A DNA stretch of 62,515 bases. Origin: Sphingosinicella sp. YJ22 (GTDB lineage: Bacteria > Pseudomonadota > Alphaproteobacteria > Sphingomonadales > Sphingomonadaceae). Under the pieces are notes generated by a model. That model was not told the DNA's origin, made no database searches, and saw nothing but the letters and a program-made list of their open reading frames with translations. The translations under genes and the position numbers were made by a program. Position 1 is the first letter of the stretch, and every line of letters begins with the position of its first letter. The DNA is taken from contig NZ_JAANPA010000014.1 in NCBI RefSeq assembly GCF_011320075.1, positions 1 through 62,515 on the forward strand. Reading direction: 5' to 3'. This document shows, piece after piece, positions 4,201 to 21,427 of the stretch.

Positions 4201-4365
4201 CTGCTTTGCTCCTCCATCCTGGTTGGGTTTGCCGGTAGAACGTGCCGCGGCCGTCATGGATGCATGCGCCGGCCCGAAAGCCGGCACGCCCGGTCGGCCG
4301 CGGCCAAGCGGCGCGCGTAACCTATCCGGTAAAAACAACTTTCCTACAGCGTACCGTTTATGTTC

Positions 4366-4371
4366 TATACT
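4366..4371 (+). promoter_or_regulatory. -10-like TATACT immediately before terminase small subunit
   Basis: TATACT ends 5 nt before the ATG at 4377 and no Shine-Dalgarno lies between them. If this hexamer is used as a -10 box, transcription would start at about the A of the start codon, giving a leaderless mRNA. No good -35 is visible. Confidence 0.35.
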
Positions 4372-4376
4372 GCCGG

Positions 4377-5135
4377 ATGGGCGGGACTGATTCGGGGCGG
4401 CCGCAGCGGCGGCGGGTGGACGAGGCGGCAAAGGCGGGCTTCGTCGCCGCGCTGAGGAACGGGACGGCGCGGGACGAGGCGGCGGCGGCGCAGGGCTTCA
4501 CCGCGGAGGCCTTCTATTACCTACGCAAGCGCGACGCCGTGTTCCGGCTCGCCTGGATCTGGGCGATCGACCTGTCGGCCCGCGACCAGCGCGAGGCGCA
4601 GCGGGCGGCGTCGCTCGCGCGGGAGGCCGAGGGCGACCCGATCGAGAGCAACAACAGGCGGATGCTTCAGCGGCGGCGGGCGCGCGGCATCCGCTTCACC
4701 GACAGCCGCAAGCAGGTCTATCTCGACCATTTCGCCGGCACCGCCGACCTCCAGGCCTCCGCCGACGCGGCCGGCGTTCACATGTCGACCGTGTACAAGC
4801 ATCTGCGCATCGACCCGGTGTTCGCCGAGGGCAATGAGGACGCGCTTCGCCGCGCCTATGCGCTGCTCGAGGCGGAGGCGGTGCGCCAGCGGCTCGAGGC
4901 CCTTCGGCGGGCGCCGTTCGAGCCGCAGCCGATCGGCGAAGGCGCCAAGGAGTTCGAGCGGGTGATCCAGCTGCTTGCGCGGCTGGAGCGGCGCGACGGC
5001 CGCATCGGCATGCGCCAGCGCGGCCAGGGCGCGCTCAAGCGCTGGACCTTCGAGGAGTCGATGGCCCTGCTCGACAAGAAGCTCCGCGCCCTCGGCGCCC
5101 GCCGCCTCCCGCCGCCTTCGGAGCCCGTGGAATGA
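4377..5135 (+). CDS. Terminase small subunit-like protein (GTA/phage DNA packaging)
   Basis: 252 residues from the ATG at 4377; the longer open frame upstream starts inside the opposite gene's promoter region. Two helix-turn-helix-like segments are visible: residues ~15-50 (FVAALRNGTARDEAAAAQGFTAEAFYYLRKRD) and ~110-145 (TADLQASADAAGVHMSTVYKHLRIDPVF), both of the kind used by small terminases to bind DNA. The C-terminal part is helical and basic. It sits 21 bp before the large terminase, the normal TerS-TerL order of alphaproteobacterial gene transfer agents. The family call depends mainly on this context. Confidence 0.75.
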   Translation: MGGTDSGRPQRRRVDEAAKAGFVAALRNGTARDEAAAAQGFTAEAFYYLRKRDAVFRLAWIWAIDLSARDQREAQRAASLAREAEGDPIESNNRRMLQRRRARGIRFTDSRKQVYLDHFAGTADLQASADAAGVHMSTVYKHLRIDPVFAEGNEDALRRAYALLEAEAVRQRLEALRRAPFEPQPIGEGAKEFERVIQLLARLERRDGRIGMRQRGQGALKRWTFEESMALLDKKLRALGARRLPPPSEPVE

Positions 5136-5156
5136 AGAAGCGCGTGAGGCCCTGAC

Positions 5157-6593
5157 ATGAACCGCGCCGAGCTGCTCGCCATATTGATCGACCTTCGCGC
5201 GCTGCCGCCGGAGCAGCGGCGAAAGGTGTGGATGGCGCTGCCCGATCCGGCGCAGCGGGCGATCCTGGAGGAATGGTGGTGGCAGGCGCATGGCGGCCAG
5301 GCCGAGCCCGACTGCGGGCCGAACGGCGATCCCTGGCGGGTGTGGGCGATCGTCGCCGGGCGCGGCTTCGGCAAGACCCGGGCCGGCGCCGAATGGGTGT
5401 GGGCGCGCGCTCGGGAGAATGAGGCGGCGCGCATCGCCCTCGTCGCCGCGACCCTGGACGAGGTCGAGCGGGTGATGATCCGCGGCGAGAGCGGCCTGCT
5501 CGCGCTCGCCCGCTGCGACGAGCGCCCGCGCTGGATCGCCAGCCGCCGAGTGCTGGAATTCCCGACCGGCGCGGAAGGCCATGCCTTCTCGGCCGAGGTG
5601 CCGGACAAGCTGCGCGGGCCGCAGCACCACCATGCCTGGTGCGACGAGCTCGCCAAATGGCCGAACGCCGACGCGACCTGGGACAATCTCATGCTCGGCC
5701 TCAGGCTCGGCGAGCGCCCGCGCACCATCGTCACCACGACGCCCAAGCCGGCGGCGCTCTTGAAGCGGATCCTCGCGCTCGATTTCACCGCGCGGACCGA
5801 AGGCCGCACCGCCGACAACCCCCATTTGCCGGCCGACTTCCGCGACGCGGTGACGGCGATGTACGGCGGCACCCGCCTCGGCCGGCAGGAGCTGGAGGGC
5901 GAGCTCCTCGAGGACCACGAACGCGCCCTGTGGAGCCGCACCCTGATCGACAAGGCGCGTGGGATCCTCCCCGGAGCGGGGAGGTGGCTCGGCGAAGCCG
6001 AGACGGAGGGGGCCCCGGGACTCGCGCTGACGGAGGGCCCCCTCCACCACGACGCTTCGCGTCGCGGTCCCCCTCCCCGTTCCGGGGAGGATTTTCGGCG
6101 GGTCGTCATCGGGCTCGATCCTCCGGCCTCGACCGGCGGCGATAGCTGCGGGATCGTGGTGTGCGGCCGGGACGCGGACGGCGTCGCCTGGGTGCTCGCC
6201 GATCTCAGCGCCGGCGGCCTGTCGCCCGAGGCGTGGGCGCGGCGGGTCGCCGAGGCGGCGGCGCAATATGGCGCGGGCCGGGTGGTCGCCGAGAAGAACC
6301 AGGGCGGCGACATGATCGCCAGCGTGCTTCGCGCGGTCGACGCCGACCTTCCCGTCCGCCTCGTCGCCGCGACCAAGAGCAAGGCCGCCCGCGCCGAGCC
6401 GATCGCGCTTCGCTTCGAGACCGGCCGCGCCCGCCTCGCCGGCCGCTTCCCCGAGCTCGAGGACCAGCTCTGCGCCCTCACCTGGAACGGCTACCAGGCC
6501 GCCGGCAGCCCCGACCGCGCCGACGCGATGGTGTGGGCGATGACCGAGCTGTTCGACAAGGAGCGCGGAAGGCCGAGTGTTCGGGCGTTGTAG
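5157..6593 (+). CDS. Terminase large subunit, RcGTA type (DNA-packaging ATPase/nuclease)
   Basis: 478 residues. The N-terminal packaging ATPase has the atypical Walker A GRGFGKTR (residues 68-75), Walker B ending W-C-D-E (~161-164) and a coupling TTTPKP segment. The C-terminal RNase H-like nuclease has IGLDPP, VVAEKNQGGDM and DRADAMVWAM acidic motifs. Residues ~270-312, between the two domains, are not terminase sequence: they are encoded by a 129-bp palindromic repeat inserted in frame. Portal, protease and capsid genes that normally follow in a GTA or prophage are absent, so this pair is an orphan. Whether the protein is still active is unknown. Confidence 0.9.
   Translation: MNRAELLAILIDLRALPPEQRRKVWMALPDPAQRAILEEWWWQAHGGQAEPDCGPNGDPWRVWAIVAGRGFGKTRAGAEWVWARARENEAARIALVAATLDEVERVMIRGESGLLALARCDERPRWIASRRVLEFPTGAEGHAFSAEVPDKLRGPQHHHAWCDELAKWPNADATWDNLMLGLRLGERPRTIVTTTPKPAALLKRILALDFTARTEGRTADNPHLPADFRDAVTAMYGGTRLGRQELEGELLEDHERALWSRTLIDKARGILPGAGRWLGEAETEGAPGLALTEGPLHHDASRRGPPPRSGEDFRRVVIGLDPPASTGGDSCGIVVCGRDADGVAWVLADLSAGGLSPEAWARRVAEAAAQYGAGRVVAEKNQGGDMIASVLRAVDADLPVRLVAATKSKAARAEPIALRFETGRARLAGRFPELEDQLCALTWNGYQAAGSPDRADAMVWAMTELFDKERGRPSVRAL
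5964..6092 (+). repeat. Palindromic repeat element inserted in-frame inside terminase large subunit
   Basis: 129 bp (exactly 43 codons) bounded by inverted ends ATCCTCCCCGG / CCGGGGAGGAT. It contains nested hairpins: CTCCCCggagcGGGGAG, CTCGGcgaaGCCGAG and GACGCttcGCGTC. The 3' half has the module CCCTCCACCA - hairpin - GGTCCCCCTCCCC - hairpin - GGGAGGAT, which recurs in the intergenic copy at 21266-21427. It keeps the terminase frame open, adding a Gly/Pro/Arg-rich linker. Confidence 0.85.
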
Positions 6594-21265: not shown

Positions 21266-21427
21266 CAATCCTCCCTGCGAGGCGCAGCCTCGTGGGGAGG
21301 GGGACCGTCCGCCGCAGCGCAGCGAAGGCGGATGGTGGAGGGGCTTTGTTCGGGCTTCGCGCAAAGCCCCTCCACCATGCTGCGCATGGTCCCCCTCCCC
21401 ATCCGCTACGCGGACAGGGAGGATAGA
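21266..21427. repeat. Palindromic repeat element, intergenic copy
   Basis: About 160 bp between recR and fmt. Ends TCCTCCCT ... AGGGAGGAT. Internal long hairpin pairs GGTGGAGGGGC (21331-21341) with its complement in GCCCCTCCACCA. The 3' half repeats the module of the copy inside the terminase gene: CCCTCCACCA, a short hairpin ending TGCGCATGG, GGTCCCCCTCCCC, a hairpin (tCCGCtacGCGGa), GGGAGGAT. Confidence 0.8.

Follow-up and report, generated by a model that had tools for sequence, protein, structure and literature searches.

The window (the whole stretch of DNA that we analysed, 62,515 nucleotides from Sphingosinicella sp. YJ22) carries a 478-codon gene for a terminase large subunit (TerL), and a palindromic DNA element lies inside this gene (Table 1). 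Its termini (ATCCTCC...GGAGGAT) fall exactly at 5964-6092, and it starts on a codon boundary, at codon 270 of the ORF at 5157-6593. Pfam places Terminase_6N at residues 65-264 of TerL and Terminase_6C at residues 318-463, one on either side of the element. A preliminary description of this DNA had proposed a 129-bp palindrome with inverted ends and hairpins that sits between the ATPase and nuclease domains and keeps the frame for 43 codons, and each of these points was confirmed, down to the exact coordinates.

The element consists of two inverted arms around a spacer. Both arms contain two hairpins, one terminal and one inner. When positions 5955-6105 are folded as single-stranded RNA, the predicted energy is -111 kcal/mol (z -6.4; 0 of 200 shuffled sequences equalled it). 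The preliminary description also mentioned a related intergenic copy at 21266-21427. We found that there is a real intergenic element, at 21268-21424, with the same plan as the terL element and a fold z of -8.7, but its arms are of another subfamily. That is, it is a sister element and not a close copy. (The names of the genes on either side of it, recR-like and fmt-like, were read from their translations.)

Table 1. Genes and palindromic elements in the window.
Feature	Position	Strand	Details
Terminase small subunit-like (TerS-like) gene	4242..5135	+	phrog_4044, E 9.4e-15; no Pfam match
terL (terminase large subunit gene)	5157..6593	+	Pfam PF03237 and PF17289, PHROGs; element between ATPase and nuclease domains
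Palindromic element, 129 bp	5964..6092	+	Codons 270-312 of terL, in-frame; peptide ILPGAGRWLGEAETEGAPGLALTEGPLHHDASRRGPPPRSGED
Left arm	5964..6015	+	Terminal hairpin, connector GGTGGC, inner hairpin (GAA loop), GACGGAGGGGGCCC
Left terminal hairpin CCTCCCCGGAGCGGGGAGG	5966..5984	+	Read from sequence
Left inner hairpin CTCGGCGAAGCCGAG, C-GAA-G triloop	5988..6002	+	Sequence and fold
Central spacer, 19 nt	6016..6034	+	Place of the DUF559 ORF in gene-bearing elements
Right arm	6035..6092	+	GGGCCCCCTCCACC, inner hairpin, GGTCCCCCTCCCC, terminal hairpin, GGAT
Right inner hairpin CGACGCTTCGCGTCG, GAA loop on inward reading	6050..6064	+	Sequence and fold
Right terminal hairpin CCTCCCCGTTCCGGGGAGG	6072..6090	+	Read from sequence
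Second element, ATCCTCCC...GGGAGGAT, sister subfamily	21268..21424	+	Gap between recR-like (-) and fmt-like (+) genes

terL is preceded by the TerS-like gene. We recognised no structural phage gene near 4242-6593, and the TerS-like and TerL pair stands alone. Two small ORFs downstream of terL, the only two that we scanned, did not match any phage families. A gene-transfer-agent setting had been suggested for this TerL, but it was not supported: no gene-transfer-agent cluster is visible, and the long ORFs downstream look like pckA and a two-component system (as read from their translations).

We compared TerL to its relatives. The 43 residues are absent from all 28 aligned loci, which comprise 15 of 15 order-level loci (16 genomes were searched and one had no TerL match) and 13 loci from the same genus. 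(We aligned one locus per genome and left out other TerL paralogues; L066, which matched the element only, was dropped.) In the order-level proteins, a short linker lies between a helix with LIxxxR or a similar motif and the nuclease strand, which reads RIVVAVDPP or similar. Within the genus, the linker is short in six of the 13 loci. In five others (L038, L039, L040, L043, and L046), it contains other palindromes, which score 42-63 against the arms of the DUF559 genes that are described below (shuffled maximum 24-28). The linkers of L041 and L042 contain other repeats. The linker in L041 is made of direct and inverted repeats of the GGGACAGTCACTTTCACGC type (several DSHFHA units) that are unrelated to DUF559 arms.

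The element has other copies. In the genome of Sphingosinicella sp. YJ22 (G000), at least eight copies are near full length, and at least three of these lie in-frame in genes: the TerL of the window, a second TerL (G000:C8), and TruB. All three use one reading frame (ILPGxGRW...GPPP). In the second TerL, the element is at the homologous linker, and in TruB it lies between the TruB_N and TruB_C_2 domains. Several other copies begin directly 3' of a stop codon. Seven of the eight copies that we checked have at least five of their six frames free of stop codons, which partly explains why insertions are tolerated. So, the clean insertion into TerL and the further genomic copies that the preliminary description anticipated were both found. 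Across the genus, the element is present in 22 of 26 genomes (E 1e-6). As a side observation, the right arm in the second TerL (L006) is replaced or invaded by an extra in-frame stretch that is rich in hairpins.

The TruB linker varies within the genus. Among 19 genomes of the genus (including the element's own), nine have the window element type in this linker (one is doubtful), five have other palindromes (one is doubtful), and five have no insert. The insert is absent from 11 of 11 order-level loci (12 genomes were searched and one had no match). On the TruB tree, insert type is not clustered (9 changes, versus a mean of 8.7 if shuffled). Judging from these sequences, turnover at this site looks high, with gains and losses not separable. 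We also noticed that one of the five insert-free linkers keeps an apparent bare terminal hairpin, and that L110 has several nested palindromes in its linker. In L110, the open frame is just 261 codons long and the VSKGTY motif is missing from it, so this gene may be broken at the linker.

A third host is a MurD-like Mur ligase, whose middle and C-terminal domains score above the Pfam cut-offs and whose N-terminal domain scores below. We read this gene in 12 genomes from the genus. It contains an in-frame element of the window type in four (G009, G010, G011, and G024), palindromes like other DUF559 arms in three (the element's own genome, G007, and G016, which was only partly readable), another palindrome in G001, and a bare terminal hairpin in G021. 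The linker is short in the other three (G002, G006, and G017). In the element's own genome, the palindrome in the MurD-like gene (L429, G000:C59) lies in-frame and is of the CCCTCTCCCC type; it resembles the arms of the C56 DUF559 cassette.

Overall, the palindromic families in the linkers of TerL, TruB, and the MurD-like protein differ between species. These inter-domain linkers (L105, L106, L107, and L110 for TruB; L038-L043 and L046 for TerL; and L429-L439 for the MurD-like protein) are hotspots for unrelated families of palindromes. The empty linkers differ in sequence and length in all three proteins, and no exact insertion boundary was obtained from them.

Some versions of the element carry a gene. 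Two half-elements in G000 (C1:37681 and C1:38095) are the two arms around one DUF559 gene (PF04480, a Vsr-like nuclease). This genome has six DUF559 genes, and all six lie between inverted hairpin arms: four of these cassettes have the plan of the terL element and two have other palindrome families. The left arm of the terL element is of the type that forms the left arm of the cassette at G000:C43:14360. Its right arm resembles both arms of the cassette at G000:C1:37681-38158, with identities of 84% and 87%. The left and right arms of the C43 cassette also differ in the way that those of the terL element do, with GGTGGC..GACGGAGG on the left and CCTCCACC..GGTCCCCC on the right.

A search with the core motif GGGGAGGKGGMMC gave the same picture. 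The motif occurs 66 times in G000 (the reversed control occurs twice). Within 3 kb, neighbouring motifs that point inward form 21 pairs. Of these pairs, 18 are 69-94 bp apart. The other three are 401-430 bp apart, and all three of these intervals hold DUF559; there is no other gene-sized interval. In particular, we found no parent element in G000 with a transposase between the same ends. The partner genes meet the curated cut-off for PF04480.

We then asked how general this arrangement is. PF04480 has 119 matches in 25 of the 26 genomes from the genus. We left out four short fragments (leaving 115 loci) and five loci without enough flanking sequence (leaving 110). We compared the 300 bp on the left of each gene to the reverse complement of the 300 bp on the right, and we considered the arms to be paired if the score was at least 37. 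By this test, inverted arms flank 96 of the 110 genes, whereas none of 170 control windows that we took from these loci passed (maximum score 36). A caveat is that the threshold was set after the first 35 loci, and the expression for the window-type motif was also chosen with the first loci already known. The other 14 genes have no arm pair at this threshold, but about five of them keep arm fragments (by eye). Five of the 14 are nearest to the clade of the window type that is described below (L206, L222, L224, L232, and L234).

Outside the genus, among the best-scoring loci that we fetched, arms were found at 2 of 2 loci from the family and at 22 of 41 from the class (19 of the 41 miss; 0 of 123 controls). 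In other Pseudomonadota, 6 of 11 loci had arms, but 2 of 35 controls also reached the threshold, so this set is weak. Two records with other genus names, L302 (QDFQ01000001.1, "Arthrobacter") and L304 (JAGSNX010000002.1, "Microvirga"), have DUF559 cassettes or arms of the sphingomonad type; these genus names may be wrong.

The arms follow the phylogeny of the DUF559 proteins. Of the 96 proteins with arms, we excluded one with a stop codon and two that were short. Among the remaining 93, arms of the window element's type (W type) were found at 32 loci (the motif was in both arms at 30 loci and in one arm at two). These 32 proteins form one side of a single branch of the tree (SH-aLRT 99), which implies 1 change, versus a mean of 26.6 for shuffled types. 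More broadly, loci with similar proteins tend to have similar arms (Mantel rho 0.55, which none of 999 permutations reached). This also holds for pairs with a relative score under 0.6 (rho 0.52).

As a further test, we chose 80 loci from named genera (Sphingomonas, Novosphingobium, Sphingobium, Sphingopyxis, Erythrobacter, and others) by their similarity to the proteins of the W clade. Four of these were loci from the genus that had already been counted. At the 74 further loci with enough flanking sequence, we found paired arms at 62 and the W motif at 69 (in both flanks at 48 and in one flank at the others). In control windows for the 80 loci, these rates were just 2 of 546 for paired arms and 5 of 546 for the motif. 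The elements and the genes also tend to be found together: the window-type element is present in 21 of the 22 genomes from the genus that have a W-clade protein, versus 1 of 4 that do not (Fisher p 0.006, ignoring phylogeny). The two exceptions are G041, which has copies of the element without a DUF559 of the matching clade, and G023, which has a protein of this clade (at a contig edge) without copies.

The hairpins appear to be under selection. We compared 140 different inner stems: opposed positions can pair in 86% of cases, versus 34% if shuffled, which implies that the sequence of the stem changes while the pairing stays. Also, on the strand that reads inward, the loop is C-GNA-G in 105 of the 130 stems of odd length. 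Triloops of this kind are exceptionally stable in DNA. Together, the conserved pairing and the loops point to recognition of the hairpin as single-stranded DNA.

Could DUF559 cut these hairpins? When compared to the PDB, the DUF559 profile matches 3hrl (endonuclease-like; 8.8e-22) and PvuRts1I (3e-5). Five residues (E15, D43, E54, D56, and H60) are invariant in 26 of 26 sequences. These acidic residues and the histidine are what is expected in a candidate PD-(D/E)XK site. In Caulobacter, the SOS response upon loss of a methyltransferase depends on a DUF559 protein, according to the passages cited here (PMC12907096). This is consistent with DNA cutting in the cell. In the same passages, this protein (VsrA), which shares the Pfam family PF04480 with our partner nuclease, is interpreted as a mismatch-repair nuclease and not as an enzyme of transposition, and it is not linked to palindromic repeats.

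The 93 cassette loci correspond to at most 52 orthologous sites (for the W type, 32 loci at 22 sites; sites that match on just one flank were not merged), so the DUF559 gene is often kept in place, as RAYTs are. At a presumed mccB-mccA junction (these names are from translations), 9 of 24 genomes from the genus have a cassette, although for one of the 24 the upstream sequence was just 62 bp long. Three of these nine cassettes are in the inverted orientation, and G009 and G012 have a bare junction of 8-13 bp. Opposite orientations at the same orthologous site in different species were seen for L204 and L228 versus L034, L205, L207, L214, and L217, and for L192 versus L170 and L183. It is as if the cassettes flip between their own inverted arms.

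We propose that the terL element is probably a non-autonomous mobile palindrome whose arms are tied to a cognate DUF559 cassette. This would be a two-part system like that of REPINs, with a Vsr-like nuclease in the role of the RAYT. The genomic association of the element with DUF559 is observed, and from here on we infer that DUF559 mobilises it. Each subfamily would be paired with a cassette, in which similar arms surround a small gene for a DUF559 nuclease (Vsr-like, of the PD-(D/E)XK type). The cassettes are present at low copy and are often at one site across species; some orthologous sites lack them, and at others they are inverted. The short versions without the gene would have multiplied and scattered. 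The DUF559 protein would recognise the arms, probably in the form of single-stranded hairpins with C-GNA-G loops, and would cut or nick them. Each DUF559 lineage would act on its own arms. The short elements would be moved in trans, without a target-site duplication, as RAYTs are thought to move REPINs. If a copy's length is divisible by three and it lands in a flexible linker (as in TerL, TruB, or the MurD-like protein), then it could survive as a spliced-in peptide. One observation against mobilisation by DUF559 is that the cassettes tend to stay at conserved sites rather than multiplying.

A broader proposal is that these are a class of mobile element with a Vsr-fold PD-(D/E)XK nuclease in place of a transposase or HUH enzyme. 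The nuclease would move palindromes in trans via single-stranded C-GNA-G hairpins, and arms and nucleases would diverge together and recur across Pseudomonadota. We consider this to be quite possible, but we offer it more tentatively. If it holds, then similar nucleases would be candidates for the enzyme behind protein-coding palindromes elsewhere.

The main alternative is that a homing-type DUF559 nuclease gene invaded the loop of existing palindromes that were spread by something else. The DUF559 profile does have a weak match to a "Mobile intron protein" (3r3p, E 0.0029), and a homing gene might well be central between two arms, at low copy, and often kept at one site, as these genes are. 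The co-segregation of arm types with DUF559 clades would also fit a nuclease that is specific for a palindrome. Nevertheless, we think that homing is unlikely, given that every gene-sized inward interval in G000 holds DUF559, that this genome has no RAYT, and that the arm-gene-arm layout recurs with many arm families, both in the genus and in the class.

Another alternative is that these are ordinary MITEs or REPINs that are moved by a DDE or Y1 (RAYT) transposase, with DUF559 as passive cargo. The elements do resemble MITEs or REPINs in their size, their inverted ends, and their scattered copies, and 11 of the 26 genomes from the genus have a Y1_Tnp gene. But the other 15 genomes do not, although the element is present in 11 of them. 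G000 is among the 15 (it has no PF01797 matches or candidates), which excludes mobilisation by a RAYT in this genome.

The ends of the elements also bear on this alternative. They prefer the sequence (A/G)A|TCCTCC...GGAGGA|T(T/C), and target-site duplications of at least 3 bp are no more frequent than expected by chance: matches of 3 bp flank 1 of 58 short elements and 0 of 75 gene-bearing elements. Of 20 two-bp matches, 18 are AT or GC, that is, extensions of the inverted repeat. The two 14-nt flanks share a 5-mer in 11 of the 58 short elements, as compared to a mean of 5.1 and a maximum of 11 for shuffled flanks. This weak excess is a point in favour of a transposase, and short elements may have a weak or offset duplication. 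We rejected DDE-type MITEs because there is no clear target-site duplication. As arm type also follows the phylogeny of DUF559, we consider passive cargo to be very unlikely.

Finally, it is hardly conceivable that the 43 residues are a native, immobile linker of TerL with hairpins that are incidental to GC-rich coding sequence: although the length of this linker varies between species, the same DNA is found at five other loci at 83-88% identity (including TruB and the second TerL), which refutes this idea, and the order-level homologues lack the residues and the fold is far from random (z -6.4).

How does this system compare to those that are already known? The preliminary description likened the terL element to the RPEs of Rickettsia. 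In the passages of the reviews cited here, RPEs are palindromes of 105-150 bp that lie in-frame in unrelated conserved protein genes and also between genes, and that encode a recurrent peptide; target-site duplication is listed as uncertain, and no enzyme is named (PMC2229807, PMC10969869). The comparison is supported at the level of function. At 129 bp, with inverted ends, the terL element is within this size range, and its family is found in-frame in several unrelated genes (two for TerL and one for TruB, and the MurD-like gene in relatives) as well as in intergenic regions. Unlike RPEs, it occurs in another taxon and has a candidate partner nuclease gene with the same kind of arms. (This comparison is with published descriptions of RPEs.) Beyond the preliminary description, our analysis adds the second TerL, TruB, and the MurD-like protein as hosts, the differing families in their linkers, and the versions that bear DUF559.

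REPIN-RAYT systems are similar in another way. In the passages cited, each REPIN has two inverted hairpin repeats, and the partner gene is flanked by repeats and is single-copy per lineage; the RAYT phylogeny is largely congruent with that of the species, and each RAYT is tied to its own repeat family (PMC3116915). Here too, we see inverted hairpin repeats and a low-copy partner gene (DUF559) that is flanked by its own repeat family and lies at orthologous sites. But this partner is a DUF559/Vsr-like nuclease and not a Y1 HUH transposase, each arm has two hairpins, and the copies that we checked begin with (A)TCCTCC and have no GTAG tag.

The CIR elements of Caulobacter are also alphaproteobacterial hairpin repeats with two stem-loops joined by a linker. 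As described in the passages cited, they are about 110 bp, have a conserved GANTC, and are strictly intergenic (PMC2229807, PMC10969869). In contrast, just two of the eight copies of our element that we checked contain GANTC (those in the window and in C8), and our copies are also found within genes.

In short, Rickettsia already provides examples of palindromes that lie in-frame, and REPIN-RAYT systems provide examples of paired inverted hairpins with a dedicated partner gene. A link between DUF559 and palindromic repeats was not found in the open-licence part of PubMed Central, which is no proof of novelty.

Bacterial genomes commonly contain small palindromic repeats, and some of these, such as RPEs, lie in-frame in conserved proteins. 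Here, three protein linkers (in TerL, TruB, and the MurD-like protein) have repeatedly acquired differing palindromic elements within one genus. The layout of the cassettes, the co-phylogeny of arms and proteins, and the further named genomes make DUF559 a specific and testable candidate for the enzyme of a large repeat family. If this is correct, then a widespread Pfam family that is still listed as having unknown function would gain a biological role.
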